This document shows, piece after piece, positions 10,550 through 37,474 of a stretch of 64,000 nucleotides of DNA. Positions within the stretch are counted from its first letter, which is position 1. Each line of letters begins with the position of its first letter. Position numbers and translations under genes: made by a program. Under the pieces are notes generated by a model. The model was not told where the DNA came from. It saw only the letters and a program-made list of their open reading frames with translations, and did no database searches. Where the stretch lies: contig NZ_LS483370.1 in the NCBI RefSeq assembly GCF_900475285.1, positions 882,001-946,000 on the forward strand. The letters are read 5' to 3'. Source of the DNA: Pseudomonas taetrolens. Lineage in GTDB: Bacteria > Pseudomonadota > Gammaproteobacteria > Pseudomonadales > Pseudomonadaceae.

Positions 10550-12574
10550 ATGTTTGGTAAATTAAGTTGGGAAGCGGTCCCGTTCCACGAGCCGATTGTC
10601 ATGGTCACCATTGCCATGATCGCGCTCGGTGGTCTGGCGCTGTTTGCAGCACTCACGTACTACAAAAAGTGGACCTACCTGTGGACTGAATGGCTAACGT
10701 CAGTCGACCACAAGAAAATCGGCGTGATGTACATCATCGTTGCCATGGTCATGCTGCTGCGCGGCTTTGCCGACGCCGTCATGATGCGTACCCAGTTGGC
10801 CATGGCCACCGAGGGCTCGCCTGGCTACCTGCCGCCTGAACACTATGACCAGATCTTCACCGCTCACGGTGTGATCATGATCATCTTCATGGCGATGCCA
10901 TTCTTCACCGGCCTGATGAACCTTGCAGTGCCGCTGCAGATTGGCGCACGTGACGTGGCTTACCCGTTCCTGAACTCCCTGAGCTTCTGGCTGCTGGTAT
11001 CCGGCGTTGTGCTGATTAACCTGTCGCTGGGCGTCGGCGAGTTCGCCAAGACCGGCTGGGTTGCTTATCCGCCGTTGTCGGGCTTGCAGTACAGCCCTGG
11101 CGTGGGGATGGACTACTACATCTGGGCGCTACAGCTATCGGGCCTGGGTACGACGTTAACCGGGGTTAACTTCCTGGCGACCGTACTGAAGATGCGCACC
11201 CCTGGCATGAAACTGATGGACATGCCGATCTTCACCTGGACCTGCACCTGGGCCAACGTCCTGATCGTGGCTTCGTTCCCGATCCTGACGGCTACCCTGG
11301 CACTGCTGACACTTGACCGCTACATGGATTTCCACATTTTCACCAATGAACTTGGTGGTAATCCAATGATGTACGTCAACCTGTTCTGGGCATGGGGTCA
11401 CCCTGAGGTGTACATCCTGATTCTGCCAGCGTTCGGGATCTTCTCTGAAGTCATCTCCACGTTCACCGGCAAGCGTCTGTTCGGTCACCACTCGATGGTC
11501 TACGCCTCCGGCGCGATCTCGGTACTGGGCTTCATGGTTTGGCTGCACCACTTCTTCACCATGGGTTCGGGGGCCAGCGTCAACGCCTTCTTCGGCCTGG
11601 CGACGATGCTGATTTCGATCCCGACGGGGGTGAAGCTGTTCAACTGGCTGTTCACCATCTACCAGGGCCGTCTGCGCTTCACCAGCCAGGTTCTGTGGAC
11701 CCTGGGCTTCATGGTGACCTTCGCTATCGGCGGCATGACTGGCGTACTGCTGGCCATCCCGGGTGCTGACTTCGTACTGCACAACAGCCTGTTCGTAATT
11801 GCTCACTTCCATAACGTGATCATCGGCGGCGCGGTATTCGGTTACATCGCAGGCTTCAGCTTCTACTTCCCTAAAGCGTTCGGCTTCAAACTGAACGAGA
11901 AGTGGGGCAAGGCAGCGTTCTGGTTCTGGTGCGTCGGCTTCTTCGTGGCCTTCATGCCGCTCTATGCACTGGGCTTCATGGGCATGACCCGTCGTCTGAA
12001 CGCCAGCACCAACCCTGAGTGGGTGCCTTACCTGTACGTTGCTCTGTTCGGCGCGGCACTGATCGCTATCGGTATCGCCTGCCAACTGATCCAGCTGTAC
12101 GTCAGTATCCGCGACCGCAAGCTGGCAGAGAACGCCTGCGAGCACGGCGATCCATGGAATGCACACACGCTGGAATGGTCGACTTCGTCGCCACCACCGT
12201 TCTACAACTTTGCTGTACTGCCAAAAGCTGACGGTATCGACCCGTTCACCGAAGCCAAGGAAAACGGTACTGCGTACCAGGCTCCGGCCAAGTACTCGCC
12301 GATTCACATGCCTAACAACACCGCTACCGGTGTGTACATGGGTGCTTTGCTGACCGTGTTCGGTTTCGCAATGATCTGGCACATCTGGTGGTTGGCGATC
12401 GCTGGTCTGGTAGGCACTGTCGTGGTCTTCGTTGCCCACGCTGCCCGTGACGACCAAGGCTACATGGTGCCGGTTGAGACCATCGAGCGTATCGAGGCCG
12501 AGCAGCACAAGCGTCTGGTAGCCGCCAAAGCAATCCCGGCTACTCGTGTTGAAACCAAGTTGGAACAGGCTTAA
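10550..12574 (+). CDS. cyoB: Cytochrome bo3 ubiquinol oxidase subunit I
   Basis: The 674-residue catalytic subunit with about 15 membrane helices binds low-spin haem b, the high-spin haem o3 and Cu-B. Visible family marks are the haem-ligand region [15 protein letters not shown], the Cu-B/cross-linked His-Tyr segment [17 protein letters not shown], the His pair in [10 protein letters not shown], and [17 protein letters not shown] with the haem ligands. Length is as in E. coli CyoB (about 663). It is translated 3 bp after cyoA and 3 bp before cyoC, so the operon is tightly coupled. Confidence 0.98.
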
Positions 12575-12577
12575 ACC

Positions 12578-13204
12578 ATGTCGAACTTAGCGACTCATGC
12601 TGGAAACGCTCATGGTCATGACCATGAGCACGATGATCATCACCACGATTCGGGCGAGACAACCATTTATGGTTTCTGGCTCTACCTGATGACCGACTGC
12701 ATCTTGTTTGCGTCGATCTTCGCGGTATACGCGGTATTGGTGAACAACGTTGCAGGTGGCCCGTCGGGCCACGACATCTTCGAACTGCCTTATGTACTGG
12801 GCGAAACTGCCCTGCTGCTGTTCAGCTCGATCACCTACGGCTTCGCCATGCTGGCGTTGTTCAAGGGCAAGAAGCCGCAGGTCCTGTTCTGGCTGGCCAT
12901 GACGTTCCTGCTCGGTGCAGGCTTCATCGCCATGGAAATCAACGAGTTCCACCTGTTGATCTCCGAGGGCTACGGCCCTAGCCGCTCAGGCTTCCTGTCC
13001 GGCTTCTTCACCCTGGTCGGTACCCACGGTCTGCACGTGACCAGCGGTCTGATCTGGATGGCGATCATGATGTATCAGGTGCAGAAAAACGGCCTGACCT
13101 CGACCAACAAGACGCGCCTGAGCTGCCTGAGCCTGTTCTGGCACTTCCTGGACGTGGTGTGGATCTGCGTATTCACCGTTGTTTACCTGATGGGGACTTT
13201 GTAA
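12578..13204 (+). CDS. cyoC: Cytochrome bo3 ubiquinol oxidase subunit III
   Basis: The 208-residue membrane subunit starts with a His-rich cytoplasmic tail ([18 protein letters not shown]), then five hydrophobic helices. The conserved subunit III segments [37 protein letters not shown] and [19 protein letters not shown] are present. It stabilises the oxidase core. Its stop codon overlaps the cyoD start by 1 nt (TAATG). Confidence 0.97.
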
Positions 13205-13530
13205 TGGCTAACGCACATTCCGACGGCGCCAACCACGGCAGCGTGAAGTCCTATGCGATCGGCTTCATCCTGTCGGTGATCCTGACCGTTATTCCGTTCG
13301 GGCTGGTGATGTACCCATCGCTGCCCAAATTCACCACTCTGGCGATCGTGCTGTTGTTCGCTGTCGTGCAAGTGGTTGTTCACCTGGTGTACTTCCTGCA
13401 CCTGGACCGTTCGCCTGCACAACGCAACAACGTCACGGCGCTGGTATTCGCAGCCCTGGTTATTGTGCTGCTGGTGGGCTTGTCCCTGTGGATCATGTTC
13501 AGCATCCACACTGAAATGATGGCGAAGTGA
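13204..13530 (+). CDS. cyoD: Cytochrome bo3 ubiquinol oxidase subunit IV
   Basis: The 108-residue protein has three membrane helices, including IGFILSVILTVIPFGLVMY and the His-containing VVVHLVYFLHLDRS typical of subunit IV, needed for Cu-B assembly. The start ATG at 13204 overlaps the cyoC stop; an upstream in-frame start would lie inside cyoC and has no ribosome site. Confidence 0.96.
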   Translation: MANAHSDGANHGSVKSYAIGFILSVILTVIPFGLVMYPSLPKFTTLAIVLLFAVVQVVVHLVYFLHLDRSPAQRNNVTALVFAALVIVLLVGLSLWIMFSIHTEMMAK

Positions 13531-13541
13531 GGTAAGACCCG

Positions 13542-14429
13542 ATGTCCTTTAAGCACTTTATCCAAATCACCAAACCGGGGATCATTTTCGGTAACGTGCT
13601 TTCTGTGGCAGGCGGGTTCTTCCTGGCCTCGAAGGGGCATTTCGATCTTGCCCTGTTCCTGGCCGCGGTGATCGGCACTTCTCTGGTGGTGGCGTCCGGT
13701 TGTGTGTTCAACAACTGCATCGACCGTGACATCGACATCAAGATGGACCGCACCAAAAACCGCGTGCTGGTACAAGGCCTGATTTCCCTCAAGGTGGCAC
13801 TGATTTACGCCACCTTGCTGGGCGTCGCCGGTCTTGTCCTGCTGTATCGCGTGGCCAACCCGCTGGCGGCCTTGTTCGCTGCGATTGGCTTCGTGATCTA
13901 CGTCGGTTTGTACAGCCTGTACTTCAAGCGCAAGTCGGTTCACGGCACGCTGATTGGCAGTCTGTCCGGTGCGATGCCGCCCGTTATCGGCTACGTGGCT
14001 GTGAGCAACAGCTTCGACATGGCCGCACTGACCCTGTTGGTGATGTTCAGCCTGTGGCAGATGCCGCATTCCTACGCGATTGCGATCTTCCGCTTCAACG
14101 ATTACCTGGCCGCATCGATTCCGGTGTTGCCAGTGAAGCGCGGGATCAAAGTTGCCAAGAAGCACATCCTGCTCTACATCCTCGCGTTCCTGATTGCGAC
14201 CCTGATGCTCACCCTCGGCGGTTACGCCGGCATGAGCTACATGGCCGTGGCAGCCGCGATGGGCATGTACTGGTTGTACATGGCCTGGACAGGCTACAAG
14301 GCAGTGGATGACAAGGTCTGGGCACGCAAGCTGTTCGTGTTCTCGATCTTCACCATCACCGCCCTGAGCGTCATGATGTCTCTGGACTTCAAAGTGCCGA
14401 CTGAGTTGCTACTGACTTACGCGCACTAA
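13542..14429 (+). CDS. cyoE: Protohaem IX farnesyltransferase (haem O synthase)
   Basis: The 295-residue polytopic prenyltransferase converts haem b to haem o by adding a farnesyl group, supplying the cofactor of this oxidase. The substrate-binding motif [18 protein letters not shown] and the second polar loop [20 protein letters not shown] are intact. Length is normal. It is the last gene of the cyo operon and is followed 12 bp later by a terminator. Confidence 0.97.
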
Positions 14430-25779: not shown

Positions 25780-25866
25780 AGCAGGCAGAAGACGAATTTC
25801 AGGCACAAAAAAACCGGCGCGGTGGCCGGTTTTCTTGTGCTGCGAGTCCTGTTAGAGACTTGCAGG
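25780..25866. repeat. Left 87-bp direct repeat of the island (attL-like)
   Basis: It matches 37293-37379 at 84 of 87 positions, in the same orientation. It includes a terminator hairpin. Just inside it, 25870-25892 keeps a decayed copy of the 3' end of the tRNA-Leu (TGGT, GAGGGAGA and TCG are shared), so the duplicated block is probably about 113 bp and reaches the tRNA gene. Confidence 0.88.
25807..25833. terminator. Terminator hairpin in the left repeat
   Basis: 9-bp stem AAAACCGGC/GCCGGTTTT with a 6-nt loop and A/T runs on both sides. It now ends the LysR transcript and probably derives from the tRNA-Leu terminator. Confidence 0.8.
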
Positions 25867-25995
25867 GAATGGTAGGGGGCGAGGGAGACTCGTGCGTTCC
25901 ATATTATTCGTGCCTTGCAGAGCAATTATATAGCTAGGGATACACGCAGGGATACAGATTCATTCCGGCTGCTCCGCTTTCCTGGATGTCTAGAG

Positions 25996-26868
25996 TCATT
26001 CAATACGAGCGTCGGCGATGGACCTCTCAATATTTTCAATGAAAGTTCTCACGTTCTCCATAACCTCCATGACCCATGCCGCGGGGAATGAGTGTTCCTC
26101 TCCGTCCTTGCCTTTTCCGCTCCGATGAACAACGTCATGCCTAATTTTTACAAATCCAAGAAGCCGGACCTTGAGATCCTCGTCTGGAAAGATATTGATG
26201 TTTAGCGCGATTTTAAAGATTGCTTCGACTTTAGGTAGGTTGTGATACAGCAGTCCCTTGAGGTAGATCCGGATTTTGTCGCTGACCACATTTGGGTTAT
26301 CCAAGATGACACTCAACGCCACCTTCTCGGCCGAGAGCTCCCTATCCTTAGCCGCGAGACTTTGCATCGCTTTTGGAGTGGCAAGCACTGTCAGTTGGAG
26401 TATGTCACCTAGGTATGCCTCCATTGAGCTAATGGTCTCAGCGAAAATCATTCTCTGAATTATTGCTGCCGATTGCCTAAAAACATACTGTTCACCGCGC
26501 GGGCACTCTGCAAGCACTTCACCCAGATGATGGTAGTTATCGATGTAGATTTCGTACGGTCTTAGTGGGATAGAGTTGTTAAGCCATTCATTCTCTTGCG
26601 GGTCATCTGATGAGAATGGGGCCTCCTCTGCATCAACCTTTACCTCGGGATGATCAAGCAATTCTATAAAGCAGCCAGCAGGGGAGTTCTGGATTTTTAT
26701 GTTGAAAAACTCCCGGCATTTGTCGCATTCCATTTCGCCGTCATCCTCAGATAGCGAGTCGGACAGAGGTTCAACGCACCAATCGACCTCGGGTACGTCA
26801 ACCGTGACACGCGCTTCTTTCTTACATAGAGGGCAGTCAAATCTTGCTGTAGTGGTTAACTGGCTCAT
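25996..26868 (-). CDS. Zinc-ribbon plus HEPN-like domain protein (island)
   Basis: In this 290-residue protein, residues 12-51 hold two CxxC pairs (CPLC at 12-15, CDKC at 48-51), a likely zinc ribbon. A helical C-terminal region (IFAETISSMEAYLGDIL, then VKIRHDVVHRSGKG) contains the R-X4-H motif R243-H248 of HEPN domains, many of which are metal-independent RNases in toxin or defence systems. It resembles cytoplasmic HEPN proteins related to the MAE_28990/RiboL-PSP group, but the exact family is uncertain. It lies at the left end of the island, transcribed outward, and is AT-rich compared with the chromosome. Toxin, abortive-infection effector or regulatory RNA-binding protein are all possible. 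Confidence 0.7.
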   Translation of the reverse strand: MSQLTTTARFDCPLCKKEARVTVDVPEVDWCVEPLSDSLSEDDGEMECDKCREFFNIKIQNSPAGCFIELLDHPEVKVDAEEAPFSSDDPQENEWLNNSIPLRPYEIYIDNYHHLGEVLAECPRGEQYVFRQSAAIIQRMIFAETISSMEAYLGDILQLTVLATPKAMQSLAAKDRELSAEKVALSVILDNPNVVSDKIRIYLKGLLYHNLPKVEAIFKIALNINIFPDEDLKVRLLGFVKIRHDVVHRSGKGKDGEEHSFPAAWVMEVMENVRTFIENIERSIADARIE

Positions 26869-27915: not shown

Positions 27916-28650
27916 TTGCAAGAGACATCGCTCGACAAAAACTTGATAGACCATCCGAGTTTAATAATCCTTCTCCCTCACATGCACAGCTATTGTGAAA
28001 AAGGACTAACTCGGTTTTCTGAGGGTAAAGATAGTTTTTCTTTGACAACCATCGAAACGTACACATGCGGAGTTTTTGAGCGTGTTGCTGAGCTAGATAG
28101 CGCGCTGATCTCCTTGCGTTTAGCGTGCAAGTTTGTAGCCGAGCTTGGTTTCGAGCAAAATCCGAGCCCTGAAGTTTATCGTTATCACTACGAAAATTTT
28201 GTGCTTCGGGTGATTGGATTGGTGGATCGGGCACATAGGCTTGTTGGAGCTTCCCTGCTCTTGCCTTCTAACAAATATGAAGTCGTTGGAGGAAACTCCT
28301 TCGTTCAGAGAGCTATCAAAACAAGTCATCCTGGGTTGAATAGAGCCTTGGACGCAGTTGCTGATGCCGTAAATAGCTACCGAGGCCCTAGGAATGAGTT
28401 GATCCACTCAAGCGCCTACTCTAGTCGTGAACTTGGTATCTTCATGGGGGTAGAGCAATTCACCGTGGATACTGGCACCGTAGACATTACAGAGCTTAAG
28501 CGGGATTACTCATCAGCCGGAGCTGTCGAGATTGGACAAACCATAGGGCGATTGATATTAACACTAACAGTGTTGCTGGAAGAGCTAGAGCCGGTATTTT
28601 CAACGGCGCAGAAATTTAGCATCTTAAAAAGAGATAAAGCTAATACTTAA
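27916..28650 (+). CDS. HEPN-domain protein, Cthe_2314-like (island)
   Basis: The 244-residue protein appears to start at TTG 27916, preceded by AGGAAGG; no in-frame ATG precedes the conserved region. The all-helical sequence has VYRYHYENFVLRVIGLVDRAHRL followed by YRGPRNELIHSSAYSSREL, in which R159-N-E-L-I-H164 is the R-X4-H catalytic motif of HEPN RNases with the Asn often found at the second position. This resembles the Cthe_2314 HEPN family. It is a free-standing gene, low in GC, between the repeat-rich segment and the methyltransferase operon. It could be a toxin, with no obvious antitoxin next to it, or an effector working with the operon downstream. Confidence 0.7.
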   Translation: MQETSLDKNLIDHPSLIILLPHMHSYCEKGLTRFSEGKDSFSLTTIETYTCGVFERVAELDSALISLRLACKFVAELGFEQNPSPEVYRYHYENFVLRVIGLVDRAHRLVGASLLLPSNKYEVVGGNSFVQRAIKTSHPGLNRALDAVADAVNSYRGPRNELIHSSAYSSRELGIFMGVEQFTVDTGTVDITELKRDYSSAGAVEIGQTIGRLILTLTVLLEELEPVFSTAQKFSILKRDKANT

Positions 28651-29030: not shown

Positions 29031-30740
29031 GTGCTTGTTGATGAGTCTCTTCTGCTAGATGAGATGCACATATTAAAGAGCGATGAGCGCAGAAGAAGTC
29101 TCGGCGCTTTCTATACGCCAAGCTTTTTAAGCAAGTTATTGTGTCAGTGGGCAATACGAAAAAAAGATGATGTTGTTTTGGAACCAAGTTTTGGAGGCTG
29201 TACTTTCCTAGAAGAAATAGCGGATCGTTTTCTAGAGTTAGGGCTAGATGACCCGTTGGAAAGTGTTTACGGGTGTGATATTGATAAGAATGCTTTTGCC
29301 AAGTTAGAGACACTGAAGGTTTATTCGAGAAACAGCAATTTTTTGTTGAAGGATTTCTTGCAGTTGGAGTCTGTAGATTTCTGCCAAGGAAAAGCGGATG
29401 TTGTAATTGGTAATCCCCCTTATATTGGGAGCTCTCAGATTAGCGTCGAGCAGCGTAAGACTCTGGAGTTGTGGAAGAAAAGTTGTGGCATGGATATTGA
29501 GGCTCGGTCTAGTCTATGGGTGTATTTTTTTATTCATGCTTTAACTTTTCTTAAAGCTGGGGCTAGGTTAGCATTCGTTTTGCCAGGTAGCTTCTTATCC
29601 TCAGATTACGCTAAGAAAATACACGAGCTGATAAAAAGTCGCTTTGATCGGAGTTTAGTGGTTTCTCTTGCTGAGAGGATTTTTGTCGCTGAAGGTGCTG
29701 AAGAAAGAACTGTTATTTTGCTTGCTGAGGGTTACAGGTCCGATGGCTTTGGCAAAGGCGTTGTCAAAGTAGCTCATTCTCCACGACTCCTAGGATTGCC
29801 AAAACTATTTGAGAGTTGGCGAGCTGATGAGCAGGTATTTGATGATTTCGACAATGTTGGTATCGGTTCGTTTTTAGCACGATCTGCTTCAGAGAATTTC
29901 TTTTCCCTATGCGCGCGCCTCCCATGTATTGAGTTGGGGAGTATCGCGGCTGTCAGTATTGGAATAGTGACAGGTGATACAAGGTTCTTCATTCGAACCC
30001 TCAGTGAGTGGCGTCAGTTTGGGATCGATGAGAGGTTCTATAAGTTTGTTGTGCCTAAGATAAAAGGCATAGCAGGTGTTAACCTGACAAAGTCACAAGT
30101 CAAATCATTGATTAGCTCAGATGTGAGGTGTCTTCTTCTTGATACAAGTAGTCATGAACTGTCTGGTCAAGTTTTAAAATATTTAAGTAGTTACCCTGTA
30201 GCGAAGCATGGCCTGGCAACTTATAAAAAAAGAGTTATTTGGCATCAGCCTGATGATAAAAAAACCCCTGATGGTTTTTTTACCTTTTTGACTCACAACG
30301 GACCGCGCATTGTCCTGAATAGTGCGAAGGTAAATTGTACTAATTCGGTGCATAGGGTTTTTTTAAAGGAGAAGTTAAGCAAGGTTCAATTGAAGCTTGT
30401 GGCTTTATCAATGCTTTCAACCTTTACTCAGACGCATGCTGAAATTATTGGTCGGCCTTGCGGGTCAGGTGCTTTGAAACTAGAGCCTAAAGACGCTCTT
30501 CAGCTTAAATTATTATACCCTGATGACATTGATCCCGAGCTAATTACGAAAGCGTTCAAAGACGTACAAAATGCATTGGACAAAAGCCCCCCCGATGAGT
30601 CCGGGGCTCGAAAAATAGCTGACTTGGCCCTAGCTAAGATGATAAAAATCAATTTTGATGATGAAATTTTACAGCTTGAGCAGTCTTTGAAAATTGCTCG
30701 CGAGCATCGAAAGGGTAATGTCGAGTCAAACCATTTCTAG
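29031..30740 (+). CDS. N6-adenine DNA methyltransferase, Eco57I/TaqI-like class (island)
   Basis: GTG at 29031 follows GGGGTGG at workable spacing and gives 569 residues; an in-frame TTG at 29016 and ATG at 29064 are alternatives. The motifs run in gamma-class order: motif X GAFYTP (25-30), motif I LEPSFGGCTFL (50-60) for S-adenosylmethionine, and the catalytic motif IV NPPY (128-131). A C-terminal region of about 300 residues, with GRPCGSGALKLEPKDALQLKLL, is probably the target-recognition domain. No endonuclease domain is seen. It opens a four-cistron operon: the kinase gene begins 15 bp downstream. The expected job is self-DNA marking for the system encoded next to it. Confidence 0.85.
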   Translation: MLVDESLLLDEMHILKSDERRRSLGAFYTPSFLSKLLCQWAIRKKDDVVLEPSFGGCTFLEEIADRFLELGLDDPLESVYGCDIDKNAFAKLETLKVYSRNSNFLLKDFLQLESVDFCQGKADVVIGNPPYIGSSQISVEQRKTLELWKKSCGMDIEARSSLWVYFFIHALTFLKAGARLAFVLPGSFLSSDYAKKIHELIKSRFDRSLVVSLAERIFVAEGAEERTVILLAEGYRSDGFGKGVVKVAHSPRLLGLPKLFESWRADEQVFDDFDNVGIGSFLARSASENFFSLCARLPCIELGSIAAVSIGIVTGDTRFFIRTLSEWRQFGIDERFYKFVVPKIKGIAGVNLTKSQVKSLISSDVRCLLLDTSSHELSGQVLKYLSSYPVAKHGLATYKKRVIWHQPDDKKTPDGFFTFLTHNGPRIVLNSAKVNCTNSVHRVFLKEKLSKVQLKLVALSMLSTFTQTHAEIIGRPCGSGALKLEPKDALQLKLLYPDDIDPELITKAFKDVQNALDKSPPDESGARKIADLALAKMIKINFDDEILQLEQSLKIAREHRKGNVESNHF

Positions 30741-30755
30741 CGAGGGCGAAACAGT

Positions 30756-31808
30756 ATGGATATTGAGAACCTTAAAAAAAACCTCGCTGATGCGCTTAGT
30801 GATACTGAGGTTGATTACAATAAGATTTTAACTTTGGCAAATCAAATCTCAAAATTTGATACGGAAAATGTCAGGTTTTCGATTGATGCTAGCCATATTT
30901 CTAGATTAGGTCATGAGCTTGTATCTAAGCAAGAAACAGCAGTCGCAGAGTTGATTAAGAATGCCTACGATGCTGATGCGGCTTATGTGAAGGCTGTTTT
31001 CAAAAATACTTCTAAGGCTGGTGGTGAACTTATTATAACTGATAACGGCTTGGGTATGAGTCGTGAAGAGTTAGTTAATGGGTTCATGCGTATCTCGACG
31101 AGAGAGAAAAGTGATAATCCCCGCTCTCCGAAATATGTCCGACAGCGTGCGGGGCGTAAAGGAATCGGTAGATTTTCAGCTCAGCGTTTAGGAATGCGCT
31201 TACAGCTTTCGACTCGTCGTGAGCAGGATAGCGTTGGTATATGCATTGATATCGACTGGAGTAAGTTTGATGATATTGGCGATCTAATTTTGGTTTCGAA
31301 TCAAATTAGAAACGATCCGAGCGCTCCAGTAGGTACTAGGTTAAATATTAGCAATCTTAAAGACTCTTGGAGCAACGCTCAAATCCAGAGAGCGTATCGT
31401 TATATCTCTGACCTCCTTCAGCCGGTGCCATTACGCTTTGCACCTAGTAAAAAGGACGGGAATCCTGGGTTTAGAGTAGAGTTTTACGAAGAGATTTGTG
31501 GCGATGAGATTTTGATCGCCAGTGAGCAACAAAATATATTGGATAATGCTCATGCAATACTGTCTGGCTACGTAGATGAGCATGGGGTCCCCTACTTCTC
31601 ACTTAAATCAAAACGGTTTGGTATTGATACGGAGTCTGAACAGCTGTATTCAGATAGTAAGGTCAAAACCGTTTTTGATGCAAATGTTAGTGACTACTCT
31701 CAACTATCTGGCGTGAGCTTTCAAGCACATTACTTTATTGAAGATGATTTGCCTGCAGGCTATCGAAATATAGTGAGGAATGTGCTGAAGAAAAATGGGG
31801 GGGGTTAG
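30756..31808 (+). CDS. GHKL ATPase/sensor kinase, N-terminal part (frame broken at G8 tract)
   Basis: This 350-codon frame contains an Hsp90/MutL/MORC-type GHKL ATPase: VAELIKNAYDADA (Asn at 69, motif I), ITDNGLGMS (Asp 96, motif II) and AGRKGIGRFSAQRLG (133-147, lid and motif III). It stops at 31806-31808 immediately after an 8-G run. The next frame continues with VRIYRNGFRVLPYG, the expected continuation of the same GHKL/transducer fold, so the ancestral protein was one chain of about 760 residues. One G fewer would join them. It may be a sequencing error, a phase-variable switch, or a real split gene with coupled translation. Confidence 0.85.
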   Translation: MDIENLKKNLADALSDTEVDYNKILTLANQISKFDTENVRFSIDASHISRLGHELVSKQETAVAELIKNAYDADAAYVKAVFKNTSKAGGELIITDNGLGMSREELVNGFMRISTREKSDNPRSPKYVRQRAGRKGIGRFSAQRLGMRLQLSTRREQDSVGICIDIDWSKFDDIGDLILVSNQIRNDPSAPVGTRLNISNLKDSWSNAQIQRAYRYISDLLQPVPLRFAPSKKDGNPGFRVEFYEEICGDEILIASEQQNILDNAHAILSGYVDEHGVPYFSLKSKRFGIDTESEQLYSDSKVKTVFDANVSDYSQLSGVSFQAHYFIEDDLPAGYRNIVRNVLKKNGGG

Positions 31809-33039
31809 AATTTATCGAAACGGATTTCGAGTGCTGCCTTATGGTGACGCCCAGGATGACTGGCTTGGGTTGCAACGATCATCAGCATTAAGACAGCTTT
31901 TACCTCCTCATGCAAACTCGAATTTTATTGGGTTTGTACAGTTAACGGACTTAGATGGCACTAATTTTGAAGAGACTGCTAGTCGCGAAGGTCTTATAGA
32001 GAATATGGCCTTTTCACAATTGCAGGATTTTATATATAAGTCTTTAATGCATGGAATTATTAAAATAGCACATGCTCGTGGTAAGAAAATATTTTCAAGT
32101 GATGACGCCGTTCAGCGAACACCTAAGGATAGAGTGGAGCAGCTGGCTTCGAAGATCACCACGTTGGTGGAAAATTATAGTAGTCCTAATCTTGTTCGTG
32201 CGCCTAGTGAACAAGCTAAGCTTGAGGAGGATGCTTCCGATATTATTGACGAGATTGTGTTGCTTGAGAAGGATACTCAAGTCCTTCTAGAAGAAATTGG
32301 AATGCTACGAGTGCTCGCGAGCTTGGGCCTAACGATAGGTGAGTTTACTCATGAAACCAGGCATGTTCTTTCAGCGCTGTCTGCAGGTATATTGAGTCTC
32401 AAGATGTCAAGCCCAGCTGCGGAGGGTTTCAAAACCTTACAGGGCAACATTGAGTCTCTTCAAGCTTATATGCGTTATTTCGACAAGGCAGTAACCCAAA
32501 ATTCTCAAAGAAGCTTGAGTGTCCACGAGATTCGAGACTTGCTAAGCGATTTCGAGCAGGTGGTTTCGTCTTCTTTGCAGCGACAGCGAGTAAATTTGAA
32601 GATTGAAGTTAAGGGTTATGACTTATTTGTTCAGTCAAGCCATAAGCCGGAATGGGCATCTATATTTTTCAATTTGTTTACAAACTCTTTAAAAGCTATT
32701 AATCGTGCTCAGGTGGCTGGTAGTATTCTCATTGTTGCAGGTGAGGTTGATGAATCAAGATTGTATCTAGAGTTTATTGATAATGGTGATGGGATATCGG
32801 ATGCTAATAAAGAAAAAGTGTTCGATGCTTTCTATACGACAAGTACTCCAGCGGATGCTCTTGCAGATGATGAAGTACATATAACCGGCTCTGGCTTAGG
32901 TCTTAAAATCATTAAGGATATTATTGAGGATGGAGGGGGTGACATCTATTTGTCAGTCCCGCCTGAAGGTTTTTCAACATGCGTTCGCATAGAATTTCCA
33001 CGGGCCTCGGATGAGGAAATACCTGATGACTTGCGTTAA
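31795..33039 (+). CDS. GHKL ATPase/sensor kinase, C-terminal histidine kinase part
   Basis: 414 codons from ATG 31795, overlapping the upstream frame by 14 nt. The start follows the end of a transducer-like domain (to about 90), then a long helix and an H-box-like segment GLTIGEFTHETRHVL with H186 as the likely phospho-accepting His. A HATPase_c domain follows: N box FFNLFTNSLKAI (291-302), G1 IDNGDGIS (328-335) and G2 TGSGLGLKII (364-373). So the intact chain has two ATPase modules, one MORC/Hsp90-like and one of histidine-kinase type. The receiver-like gene downstream overlaps by 14 nt, which suggests a His-to-Asp relay between them. Confidence 0.85.
   Translation: MGGVRIYRNGFRVLPYGDAQDDWLGLQRSSALRQLLPPHANSNFIGFVQLTDLDGTNFEETASREGLIENMAFSQLQDFIYKSLMHGIIKIAHARGKKIFSSDDAVQRTPKDRVEQLASKITTLVENYSSPNLVRAPSEQAKLEEDASDIIDEIVLLEKDTQVLLEEIGMLRVLASLGLTIGEFTHETRHVLSALSAGILSLKMSSPAAEGFKTLQGNIESLQAYMRYFDKAVTQNSQRSLSVHEIRDLLSDFEQVVSSSLQRQRVNLKIEVKGYDLFVQSSHKPEWASIFFNLFTNSLKAINRAQVAGSILIVAGEVDESRLYLEFIDNGDGISDANKEKVFDAFYTTSTPADALADDEVHITGSGLGLKIIKDIIEDGGGDIYLSVPPEGFSTCVRIEFPRASDEEIPDDLR
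31797..31804 (+). other. 8-G homopolymer at the kinase frame break
   Basis: Eight consecutive G preceded by AAAAAT. With 7 G the two kinase frames join (...KNGGVRIYRNG...). Runs of this length are prone to slipped-strand mutation and to sequencing error. Confidence 0.8.
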
Positions 33040-34165
33040 ATATTTGTGTATGGACGATCAGCCGGAAGAGTATATACTTCCGTTGTTAGATCAGTTGAGT
33101 CTTTTTTGCGATGACTTGAAGTTTGAGCGTATGCATCCACAGGATTTCGCTCTCCAATTTGAGCGTATCCAAGGACTTGCAAATGAAGGCGTATATTTTG
33201 GGCTTCTTGTCGACCTTCGCTTAGATCAAGATTCAGATGCTGAAGGTAATAAGGTATATTACCGAGGTCCAACGCTTGCACAAGAGTTACGCACTCGCAT
33301 GGCTGAGGGGAGCATGTCCAGTTTTCCAATAATATTATGGTCGATGAACGATAATATTGTGCGCTCATATGCTCCAGATAGTTCCTCCCATGATCTGTTT
33401 GATGCAGTATATGCAAAGGATGATGCGAATCACCCCTTAGATCGAACTGTTTCATGCCAGCTAGTCGCTCTAGCTGTAGGCTATCAGAATCTCGTAAGTA
33501 TACTCTCAGAAAGTGCCAATCCCTCTATTGATAAAGTTATTGGTTTGCTTGATGGTGATAGAGATTATTTAGATCCTCGACTAATTTCTTACTTGAAGGG
33601 TAATGCCGTTTATGAGTTGGCGGGCAAAGTGTTGAATACTTTGTTACGTTGTGATGGTGTTTTAATTAACGAGGTTATGTTAGCTGCGCAGCTTGGTGTT
33701 GATGTTGAGCGGTCTGGCGAGCAATGGATAGCATTTCTTGAAGCTGTGAGTAAGTGTCAGTACTCTGGAGTGTTTCATGAGGCCTGGCCTCGCTGGTGGA
33801 AGCATCGCATAGAAGCATTTTGGACTGAGTTTGTATCAAACAAAGGGTCCTTGAGGAAGTACACTGCTGATGAACGTGTGGCTATACTGAATGAGAAAAT
33901 TGGTGTGGCACTTGTTTCCGCAGCCCCTATTGCTGAAGGTTATAGTCACAGATTTTCAACTGTATGTGTGGCATTGAAGTCCCCTTTAGATCCAGTAGAT
34001 GGATTCAAAGTTCATACTCCTAGACAAGATGCCTGGCAAGATAGTCGATATGTTTCTGCTCACGCTGTTATAAATAGGCTTAAAAAATCCGAGTGGAGCC
34101 TCGATCCCTTGGAGATTGATCGTTTTAAACAGCTTATGGAAAGGCTGAAACATGAAGCGGTGTAA
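33026..34165 (+). CDS. Receiver-like response regulator with unknown C-terminal domain (island)
   Basis: ATG at 33026 with GAGGAAA upstream gives 379 residues. Residues 1-135 look like a receiver: acidic pair in YLCMDDQPEE (D10, D11), probable phospho-acceptor D63 in GLLVDLRLDQD, Ser after the central strand (IILWSMND) and Lys in VYAKDD (131). The remaining 240 residues match no domain I know; conserved-looking stretches are WPRWWKHRIEAFW and GYSHRFSTVCVALKSP. No helix-turn-helix is evident, so output may be enzymatic or through protein contact. Overlaps of 14 nt with both neighbours indicate translational coupling with the kinase and the last gene. Confidence 0.75.
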   Translation: MTCVKYLCMDDQPEEYILPLLDQLSLFCDDLKFERMHPQDFALQFERIQGLANEGVYFGLLVDLRLDQDSDAEGNKVYYRGPTLAQELRTRMAEGSMSSFPIILWSMNDNIVRSYAPDSSSHDLFDAVYAKDDANHPLDRTVSCQLVALAVGYQNLVSILSESANPSIDKVIGLLDGDRDYLDPRLISYLKGNAVYELAGKVLNTLLRCDGVLINEVMLAAQLGVDVERSGEQWIAFLEAVSKCQYSGVFHEAWPRWWKHRIEAFWTEFVSNKGSLRKYTADERVAILNEKIGVALVSAAPIAEGYSHRFSTVCVALKSPLDPVDGFKVHTPRQDAWQDSRYVSAHAVINRLKKSEWSLDPLEIDRFKQLMERLKHEAV

Positions 34166-34886
34166 GCCTGACGCTTTTAGAAAACAAGTTGCTAGTGAGT
34201 TGAGGCAGTTGGGAGGCGTACTTAATCAAAATGCTAGCGAAGTCTGTTTTGATACTGGGCCAATACTCCAGGCTGCCAGCATGTGTATTGTTTCAAAGCC
34301 TTACGGTGGTGAATCCTGGGGTTATCAGATTGATGATCTCAGGTTCAGAGTCAAAACACCTCAGAAGGTGATCCCAAATACGGTTGGGGATTATCTGAAT
34401 GTTGTAATGAATTTTAAAATTCAAGGAAAGTGTTCTAATGAGTTTTCAGAGCTTATAAAGTTGCTTGAGTTTAGTATTGTTGTTACTAGCAATGATGGTG
34501 TCTATCTCTCGTCCTGGCACTTTGATAAGCATATAGTTTCTGATGATGGTATGGACGAGGAACCAGAGGATGCACATCCGTTGTACCACTTCCAGTATGG
34601 AGGGAAAAATCTATTGCCACTTGGTGGAAATCATGGGGGTATATTGATTTTGCCTTCTCCCCGTATCGGGCATCCTCCGATGGATGTTGTTCTTGCTATT
34701 GATTTTGTTTTGTCAAATTTTGCAGGTTTGCATTGGCGCAAGCTAAGAGGTAAGTCGGACTATACTAATCGTTTGGTTGAGGCGCAAGATAAGTATCTTA
34801 AGCCATATATAGAGAGTATGTTTTCTTGGTGGGATGCTGGGCGGGAATCTCCATATGTCAAAAGTTTGTGGCCTCATCTGATATAG
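34152..34886 (+). CDS. Unrecognised protein, last gene of the island operon (244 aa)
   Basis: I do not recognise the family. It has no signal peptide or membrane helix. Notable stretches are HPLYHFQYGGKNLLPLGG, ILILPSPRIGHPPMDVVLAID and FVLSNFAGLHWRKLRG, rich in His, Gly and Pro turns, plus an acidic linker DDGMDEEPEDAHP. The ATG at 34152 lies inside the 3' end of the receiver-like gene (14-nt overlap), so it is almost certainly made together with it. It is followed by a terminator. As the only member without an assigned role it could be the effector or a substrate-recognition subunit. Confidence 0.7.
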   Translation: MKRCKPDAFRKQVASELRQLGGVLNQNASEVCFDTGPILQAASMCIVSKPYGGESWGYQIDDLRFRVKTPQKVIPNTVGDYLNVVMNFKIQGKCSNEFSELIKLLEFSIVVTSNDGVYLSSWHFDKHIVSDDGMDEEPEDAHPLYHFQYGGKNLLPLGGNHGGILILPSPRIGHPPMDVVLAIDFVLSNFAGLHWRKLRGKSDYTNRLVEAQDKYLKPYIESMFSWWDAGRESPYVKSLWPHLI

Positions 34887-34922
34887 AAGTTCTCTAGGGT
34901 TGAAGTTTTTTGTGGTGATAGT

Positions 34923-34963
34923 AGAGGGAAGTCAATAGGCTTCCCTCTGTTTATGGGTTTTAC
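34923..34963 (+). terminator. Terminator of the methyltransferase-kinase operon
   Basis: Perfect 9-bp stem AGAGGGAAG/CTTCCCTCT (34923-34931, 34940-34948) followed by a T-rich stretch (GTTTATGGGTTTT). Confidence 0.75.
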
Positions 34964-35516: not shown

Positions 35517-36359
35517 TTACATAGTGAGCACATCTTGCAAGCTGTGTTTATAAGAGCGCTCTGCAAGCTCACTTGATGTCCAACTCCAGAAGTTTTCTCC
35601 CTGCTGCGGAATGTTCAGCTTACACAGCGCAAGCGAGCCCCTGTTAATAAGACGCTGAGCTGCCCATAGCTTGCCTCCGACATCGAGTAGTGCTTTTTCT
35701 GCCTCATTCCATTTTTCCTCAAGTACTGTATAGGCTAGATGCGCAGCTTTTTTCTCGATGGCTTCGTACTCTTTCTGGGCCTCAATGATGTGTTTGTCGA
35801 TGGCGATGAGTTCCTGCTCTAGCGCAGTGATAATCAGTAGTTGGCGACGGTTATGCTCAGTTGCGGTGCAGAGCTTTTTCGCCGCCTTTTCTGCATCACT
35901 ACTGGCATTTTTTTCACCATCTACATCCCCCCAAGCGACTGCCTGCGCATAGGCTGTTGCAGCCTCAGTCTCGGCCTGCCGGGCTTTTGCCATATCATCA
36001 TGTGCTTGCTGGCGGATCTGCTCTAAGCGAGTACTGATTCTGCAACGTTTATCTTGGAGCTCTTCTTCATCTGACTTCCAAGTCGTCATAGACTCGATAT
36101 AGCCAGCCATTAAGCTCTCTTGATTAACCAGATTTTCACGGCGATATATTTTCCGCGAGAGCGTGAGAATTTCTAGGTCTAGTGAATCAAACTCTCTTTT
36201 CTGCTCGTTGTATTGCTCGCGTGCTTCGCGTTCGCGGCCTTGCGCGATGACTTCCGGGCATTCCAGTGCTGCTTCAAAGGAGGCCAGTTTAGTCCGCAGA
36301 TTTTCCAGTTTGATGGTCAGTTTTTCGTGGCGAATTTTCATTTCTTGAAGTTCGTTCAT
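35517..36359 (-). CDS. Long coiled-coil protein of unknown function (280 aa, island)
   Basis: Almost the whole protein is heptad-rich helix: MKIRHEKLTIKLENLRTKLA at the start, REREAREQYNEQKREFDSL, RCRISTRLEQIRQQAHDDMAKA, and LEQELIAIDKHIIEAQKEYEA later, each in outline. A globular tail with GENFWSWTSSELAERSYKH ends it. No membrane segment. The architecture is shared by unrelated phage, plasmid-partition (KfrA-like) and defence proteins, so no function can be claimed. The start at 36359 has a weak ribosome site; the Met seven codons further in is an alternative. Confidence 0.55.
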   Translation of the reverse strand: MNELQEMKIRHEKLTIKLENLRTKLASFEAALECPEVIAQGREREAREQYNEQKREFDSLDLEILTLSRKIYRRENLVNQESLMAGYIESMTTWKSDEEELQDKRCRISTRLEQIRQQAHDDMAKARQAETEAATAYAQAVAWGDVDGEKNASSDAEKAAKKLCTATEHNRRQLLIITALEQELIAIDKHIIEAQKEYEAIEKKAAHLAYTVLEEKWNEAEKALLDVGGKLWAAQRLINRGSLALCKLNIPQQGENFWSWTSSELAERSYKHSLQDVLTM

Positions 36360-37292: not shown

Positions 37293-37379
37293 AGCAGGCA
37301 GAAGAGGAATTTCAGGCACAAAAAAACCGGCGCGGTGGCCGGTTTTCCTGTGCTGCGAGTCCTGTTAGAGGCTTGCAGG
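37293..37379. repeat. Right 87-bp direct repeat of the island (attR-like)
   Basis: 84/87 identical to 25780-25866. It is 10 bp from the 3' end of the tRNA-Leu gene and includes that gene's terminator hairpin. It marks the right end of the island. Confidence 0.88.
37320..37346 (-). terminator. Terminator of the tRNA-Leu gene
   Basis: AAAACCGGC/GCCGGTTTT stem with a 6-nt loop and, on the minus strand, a run of seven T. Confidence 0.85.
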
Positions 37380-37389
37380 TACTGCTAGA

Positions 37390-37474
37390 TGGTGCCCCGA
37401 GGGAGAATCGAACTCCCACTTCTTTCGAAAACGGATTTTGAATCCGCCGCGTCTACCAATTCCGCCATCAGGGC
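37390..37474 (-). tRNA. tRNA-Leu (anticodon CAA)
   Basis: 85 nt including an encoded CCA. The 5' GCCCTGA pairs with TCGGGGC of the acceptor stem (one G-T pair). The anticodon loop is ATT-CAA-AAT in a GGATT/AATCC context; a long variable arm (TTTTCGAAAGAAG) and the T-loop GTTCGATTC identify a leucine tRNA. It has the same anticodon as E. coli leuX, a well-known integration hotspot. The gene is intact on the right side of the island. Confidence 0.96.

Follow-up and report, generated by a model that had tools for sequence, protein, structure and literature searches.

A GHKL histidine kinase, a receiver and a conserved third protein beside exchangeable DNA-modification genes in Pseudomonas taetrolens and other bacteria

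A gene cluster in an island of the Pseudomonas taetrolens genome encodes a kinase with two ATPase modules, a receiver protein and a conserved third protein of 244 residues (UNK in what follows), and stands behind the gene of an N6-adenine DNA methyltransferase (MTase). It was followed up in a window of 64,000 nucleotides (contig NZ_LS483370.1, positions 882,001 to 946,000), which is part of a single-contig genome of 4.84 Mb; the operon occupies 29031–34886 on the forward strand. Judged by the alignments of its relatives, the cluster is tight and conserved in its ATPase sites, its histidine, its receiver pocket and the H/D core of UNK, and, as the gene neighbourhoods read, its modification partner has been replaced among the loci, in one switch by phosphorothioation genes. 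With two conserved ATPase sites, a conserved His–Asp pair and a conserved third protein beside exchangeable DNA marks, the cluster fits a restriction-like module, and the interpretation that we consider rather probable is that of a mobile, restriction-like defence module in which the modification gene would mark self and phosphate signalling from kinase to receiver would control the output.

The module and its relatives

An earlier note on this stretch had made its reading depend on the genes occurring together elsewhere, and they do. Genome contigs were scanned with the receiver alignment alone, which gave 29 loci; in 27 of these (L002–L028) homologues of the GHKL part, the histidine kinase (HK) part, the receiver and UNK stand together, the kinase being decayed in L027, and L030 has a fragmented receiver and UNK only. 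As the loci had been fetched by the receiver alone, the kinase and UNK homologues that flank it in 27 of 29 are more than chance would bring. The kinase stop lies within 26 nt of the receiver start in 26 of the 27 (L027 is the exception), the two genes overlapping by 14 nt in nine loci and by 11 nt in four; in the window the overlaps of HK with receiver and of receiver with UNK are 14 nt each, as the note had reported.

By the record titles, many of them of metagenome-assembled genomes (MAGs), the loci come from Pseudomonadota, Thermodesulfobacteriota, Bacteroidota, Verrucomicrobiota, Chloroflexota and Bacillota. The family is rare, being found in 5 of 398 Pseudomonas genomes, among them the window's own and a divergent one, in 2 of 398 Pseudomonadota genomes (the window's own and one weak partial match) and in 2 of 395 Bacteroidota genomes (counting the genome used as centre). 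The receiver and UNK are two broadly scattered protein families without a name in the libraries searched. A Pseudomonas locus (L052, 5986–11559) holds a four-gene set of Eco57I-type MTase, kinase, receiver and UNK, with profile matches of 9.8e-6 for the receiver, over its C-terminal region, and 7.4e-4 for UNK; going by these matches, it is a more distant branch of the present system. On the Hymenobacter plasmid NZ_CP014303.1 the kinase is accompanied by two hypothetical genes standing where receiver and UNK would be, of which the first was matched at 33% identity, and by an N-6 DNA methylase downstream.

Some further settings were met along the way. The plasmid module lies near a Piwi-domain gene and a second DNA methyltransferase, and two IMG/VR contigs recorded as viral (L062, L063) both carry the module, L062 with an upstream MTase. 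In L029, whose kinase is split, a conjugation coupling protein (1292–2686; T4SS-DNA_transf, 8.6e-39) is encoded upstream of it, which is the setting of a mobile element. P0289, a kinase with 48% identity to that of L002 (a locus of Pseudomonas sp. CBZ-4), is recorded from a Candidatus Hodarchaeota bin, and in two Pseudomonadota genomes (L060, L061) DUF2290 proteins stand beside a long open reading frame (ORF) that was read as a helicase without a domain search.

The kinase and its broken frame

The earlier note had described a single kinase with an Hsp90/MORC-type ATPase and a C-terminal histidine-kinase module around H186. Both ATPase modules and H186 are present, but they lie on two ORFs in different frames: an N-terminal half of 350 aa at 30756–31808 (+), with a GHKL (MORC/MutL/Hsp90-like) ATPase (HATPase_c_3, 2.8e-20), and a C-terminal half of 414 aa at 31795–33039 (+), with the H-box and a HATPase_c domain (2.4e-14) with N, G1 and G2 boxes. 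The frame changes at a tract of eight G at 31797–31804 (+), where the ORFs meet and which is the sole run of at least eight G or C in the 64 kb, and the 14-nt overlap of the two ORFs is a by-product of this break. An intact protein of 760 aa, P0201, is 98.9% identical to the first half (349 aa) and 99.3% identical to the second (413 aa). The kinase is a single ORF of 732–946 aa in 26 of the 29 loci, the others being L027 (decayed), L029 (split) and L030, where it lies beyond the stretch obtained. The two ORFs are halves of one kinase protein, and the kinase is interrupted in this genome.

H186 of the C-terminal ORF (codon 32350–32352) is H532 of P0201. In the kinase alignment H532, E533, N643, D675, G711, G713 and G715 are invariant in 27 of 27 sequences, as are the ATP-site residues of the N-terminal GHKL domain, and the two-component hallmark of an invariant H-box His with ATP-binding N and G boxes is thereby found in every kinase aligned. 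The NCBIfam BbrUII/HgiDII model NF050001 matched the window kinase at 5e-22 in its GHKL part only; a full-length match failed, with 78 bits over positions 2–176 of 659 and a cut-off of 550.

With its kinase frame broken, the module in this genome is probably silent or switched off. That the break at the tract is itself a switch, through phase variation or programmed frameshifting, and not error or decay, is an unlikely explanation, though one compatible with the others. In its favour, the only such run in the window sits exactly at the kinase break, kinase alleles with an intact frame exist and the remaining genes of the operon have open frames. The tract, however, is not kept: among the other matched relatives the longest G run at the site varies from 2 to 6 (2 for both L002 and L050), and L015 combines a run of eight at the same place with an open frame; this lack of conservation makes a programmed frameshift unlikely, and a sequencing error is possible where a single genome sequence is at hand. 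The break may thus stem from phase variation, from fixed loss or from a sequencing error. Broken alleles recur beyond the window (the kinases of L027 and L029, the receiver of L030), where draft or MAG errors are possible.

The receiver and the third protein

The receiver gene (33026–34165, +) encodes 379 aa, with a receiver domain at about residues 1–166 followed by a C-terminal region without fold assignment; its best protein match, 97% identical, is named Pseudomonas fragi. At E ≤ 0.001 the receiver has 159 homologues, of which 120 were listed; when 32 chosen for spread were aligned with the window's own, D10, D11, D63 and K131 were invariant in all 33, which upholds the earlier description of a receiver-like protein. 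The receiver fold with the DD, D and K of two-component systems was found for the protein. None of the 33 matched Pfam Response_reg, nor Response_reg_2 (PF19192) at E ≤ 1 (hhalign probability 2.2%). Scans with Pfam, PADLOC and NCBIfam found no DNA-binding family on the receiver, in agreement with the earlier note.

The last gene (34152–34886, +) encodes UNK, of 244 aa, a candidate output or effector partner with a conserved H/D-rich core. It had been called unrecognised, and it has no family in Pfam, PADLOC or NCBIfam either. A protein search gave 71 homologues, and in an alignment of 34 sequences (33 homologues chosen for spread and the window's own) W122, H123, D125, H142, P143, H146, G150, G151, P170, R171, P176, D184 and F185 are invariant; the structure model (pLDDT 84) had no clear fold match. 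UNK may be the effector, a role for which it is favoured solely on the ground that no other protein of the module has an invariant polar core that lacks an explanation.

Exchange of the modification partner

The MTase of the window (29031–30740, +; 569 aa, GTG start) has the NPPY motif and, as had been seen from the sequence, no nuclease domain among its Pfam hits (N6_Mtase 4.9e-14, Eco57I 3.5e-14); PADLOC assigns residues 22–509 to MTase_II PDLC03267 (8.9e-66). It had been taken for a fixed fourth cistron, which the relatives contradict, the MTase being a replaceable part whose position and kind vary among the 29 loci. DNA-modification genes adjoin the module in 25 of them: a homologue of the window MTase stands directly upstream in 14, and eight instead have a methyltransferase immediately downstream (that of L027 in two pieces). 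The two downstream MTases that were scanned (L012, L021) are both of the Eco57I/N6_Mtase type, the remaining ones being called by similarity, and that of L012 belongs to PADLOC family PDLC03335 as against PDLC03267 in the window. The sequence of L010 starts at a contig end immediately ahead of the kinase, and that of L029 stops within the receiver. In the Sphingobium Ant17 loci (L013, L030) a longer kinase ORF (946 aa) and an upstream DUF4365 gene were seen, and the genes behind UNK in L030 are those of an IS66 transposase, a DEAD/ResIII helicase and a serine recombinase.

Three loci from Bacteroidota (L016, L018, L023) yielded no such MTase; there the single-strand phosphorothioation genes for SspB, SspC and SspD lie directly upstream of the kinase. 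PADLOC matched SspB at 1.7e-106 in L018 and 4.7e-100 in L023, the L016 gene being assigned by similarity to these, SspC at an E-value of 0 in all three, and SspD at 6e-93, 5e-91 and 1e-90; the matches are far above those to BrxC, BrxP or DndC models. In a kinase tree of 30 rows, with long-branch warnings for L052 and the HEF_HK rows (discussed below), the Ssp-linked modules form one clade (100/100) inside the group with downstream MTases (94/88, not starred), and this single clade fits one switch of the DNA mark. Near the SspBCD genes of two other loci, weak kinase-profile (GHKL) matches were seen at L091 6249–8171 (6e-6) and L096 11470–13356 (7e-9); these genes are possibly another GHKL-type Ssp partner.

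The island and its surroundings

The operon lies in a low-GC stretch at 26–36 kb, where GC is 0.42–0.48 as against mostly 0.55–0.60 outside. The island is flanked by a 96-nt direct repeat, whose left copy is at 25780–25875 (+) and whose right copy, 94% identical, at 37293–37388 (+), abuts a tRNA-Leu gene (CAA; 37390–37474, −) at the island edge, so the earlier placement of the operon in an island beside a tRNA stands. No integrase was reported for it, and no search aimed at integrases was made. A terminator-like hairpin of 14 pairs follows the last gene at 34920–34951 (+), a consensus match only; the consensus scan found 10 such sites in the region where 5.9 were expected. Within the island, a small ORF 5′ of the operon (27916–28650, +) matches HEPN_Cthe2314 at 8.6e-6, close to but below the Pfam cut-off, a protein at the left edge (25996–26868, −) has weak zinc-ribbon-like and RiboL-PSP HEPN matches, all below cut-off, and a 280-aa protein in the right part (35517–36359, −) weakly matches a Rad50 model (0.0053).

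Interpretation

In the defence reading that we favour, the modification gene, here the N6-adenine MTase, would mark host DNA, and the N-terminal GHKL (MORC/MutL-like) ATPase of the kinase would sense the state of the DNA or a signal of invasion. The kinase would then autophosphorylate at its H-box His and hand the phosphate to D63 of the receiver, and the phosphorylated receiver, via its C-terminal region and UNK, would trigger an output that stops unmarked foreign DNA. We infer the direction of signal flow, the defence role and unmarked DNA as the signal from the sequences. The earlier note had also proposed self/non-self defence, which fits the module's place beside modification genes in 25 of the 29 loci and, in the window, its position on an island with a repeat and a tRNA gene at its edges; of the phosphorelay it proposed, the invariant phosphotransfer residues on kinase and receiver fit His–Asp signalling, but the kinase is interrupted in this genome.

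Several observations weigh against this reading, the broken kinase frame of the window itself among them. No nuclease or other effector domain was recognised in kinase, receiver or UNK by the Pfam, PADLOC and NCBIfam scans. Foldseek gave no receiver match at E ≤ 0.001 (the best receiver was at 3.2e-3), and the receiver of L052 seems, by eye, to be without the conserved Lys. The Sphingobium Ant17 loci have no modification gene among the neighbours scanned. Only three Ssp-linked loci are at hand, in one long-stemmed clade placed on an unstarred fork, and in L016 an ATPase gene downstream of the module (11938–14136, −) matches PADLOC PbeC at 3.9e-24, with weaker LmuB, GajA and PtuA matches, so that an alternative Ssp partner is possible there. 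In a reverse test, 16 other Ssp loci were taken: of the 17 Bacteroidota genomes with an SspC match, the nine others that scored best were used, and from the window's order every genome with a DUF4007 match, seven in all; the module was found in none of the 16, L100 and L101 being incomplete stretches, and the genes after sspD were different ones. It follows that Ssp systems have the module as a partner occasionally at most.

Two other explanations account for part of the same evidence. The kinase–receiver pair might be a regulator and not a restriction machine, setting expression or activity for the modification gene or for some other cellular nuclease; for this the invariant His and Asp speak, as does the speculation of the authors of a 2021 study that signalling by HEF_HK/Response_reg_2 proteins controls restriction–modification (R-M) systems (PMC8011034). 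We regard this as rather improbable, given that no DNA-binding family was found on the receiver and that a third conserved protein accompanies the pair in 27 of 29 loci; pairing with two N6-adenine MTase families and with SspBCD also agrees better with an output directed at DNA, marked or unmarked, than with control of a single gene. Alternatively, the module might be a restriction-like defence in which the GHKL/HK protein is a DNA-clamp ATPase in the style of paraMORC, with His and Asp an internal switch or vestigial and phosphotransfer to D63 not the signal path. The best match of the N-terminal GHKL domain is indeed the BbrUII/HgiDII restriction-enzyme model, and paraMORC ATPases occur in R-M operons (PMC2292703), a paper in whose available text a term search did not find "receiver". 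To this explanation, too, we give little credence, since all 27 kinases have H532 and all 33 aligned receivers have D63, together with the acidic pocket and the Lys.

The interpretation of the earlier note is plausible and partly supported. The arrangement is a variant of the published kind of two-component system (TCS)-like genes beside R-M genes, and what tells most about it is that its DNA mark has been switched. A stronger claim is conceivable but doubtful: that this is a modification-agnostic restriction module, the first in which a His-to-Asp transfer, started by a MORC-like DNA clamp, would gate the attack on unmarked DNA, and that it can be re-paired with N6-methyladenine or SspBCD phosphorothioation and is one missing partner for those SspBCD systems that have no known restriction module. 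On the basis of gene neighbourhoods, two-component signalling has been predicted to take part in telling self from non-self DNA (PMC8011034), and, since the three genes are found with DNA marks of different chemistry, the module offers a clean test of this prediction.

Comparison with known systems

The earlier note knew of no named system of exactly this composition, but a related TCS-like arrangement beside R-M genes was published in 2021, when Bellieny-Rabelo and colleagues described HATPase_c_3–HEF_HK–HATPase_c kinases whose neighbours are Response_reg_2 proteins and R-M genes, C5 methylases and Vsr being prominent among the latter (PMC8011034). Response_reg_2 was found in 7 of 200 Pseudomonadota genomes, and the kinases of these seven loci match the present kinase profile at 1e-35 to 6e-46; the sole one scanned, L043, has a C5 methylase, kinase, Response_reg_2 protein and Vsr, in this order. 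Common to both is a kinase of HATPase_c_3, DHp and HATPase_c beside a receiver protein and a DNA methylase, the N-terminal HATPase_c_3 and C-terminal HATPase_c being found in the window halves and in the intact kinases of L002, L012 and L013. HEF_HK (PF19191) was found neither in the window halves at E ≤ 0.1 nor in L002 and L013, and the kinase of L012 matches it at 0.0015 with 19.4 bits (cut-off 24.1). The receivers differ, being ORFs of 567–721 aa with Response_reg_2 there and a 379-aa protein without such a match (hhalign 2%) here, as do the modification genes, C5-cytosine methylase and Vsr in L043 against N6-adenine MTase or SspBCD. The third gene of the present module was not found in the seven loci, in which no ORF of at least 120 aa matches the present receiver or UNK profiles at E ≤ 10. 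By these profile comparisons, the two kinds of system share the ancestry and plan of the kinase, not the receiver or the third gene.

MORC and paraMORC ATPases, which occur in R-M operons (Iyer 2008, PMC2292703), enzymes of the BbrUII/HgiDII type and VcSduA (paraMORC3 type) likewise have an N-terminal GHKL ATPase in a modification- or defence-linked setting, but they come with helicases or fused nucleases, whereas the present system has a histidine-kinase half, a receiver and no recognised nuclease. Type II R-M systems share the Eco57I/N6_Mtase-type DNA methyltransferase, which the window has in an island operon; they differ in that the module is without a recognisable restriction endonuclease, no nuclease family being found in its other proteins, where folds without assignment remain. 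Detocs (DtcA/DtcB/DtcC) uses a histidine kinase and a receiver in phage defence; to our knowledge it has no link to DNA modification, and its effector differs.

The SspABCD–SspE and SspABCD–SspFGH systems resemble the three loci in which the module stands directly behind SspB–SspC–SspD. SspF carries a Walker A motif, and one end of SspH is FtsK-like (PMC8092258), as against GHKL/HK, receiver and UNK here; no P-loop or FtsK family was found in the module proteins scanned, SspF and SspH being set apart by their descriptions. The available text of a 2024 phosphorothioation analysis (PMC10853773), by term search, makes no mention of GHKL, histidine kinase, receiver, MORC, HATPase or two-component. 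An Acinetobacter Ssp system without a cognate nuclease lies in a region that includes a histidine-kinase two-component system (PMC12421847), and in a 2021 survey 2,211 of 2,678 sspBCD loci, as printed, were without either known restriction partner (PMC8092258); for a minority of the sspBCD loci without such a partner, the module is a concrete candidate.

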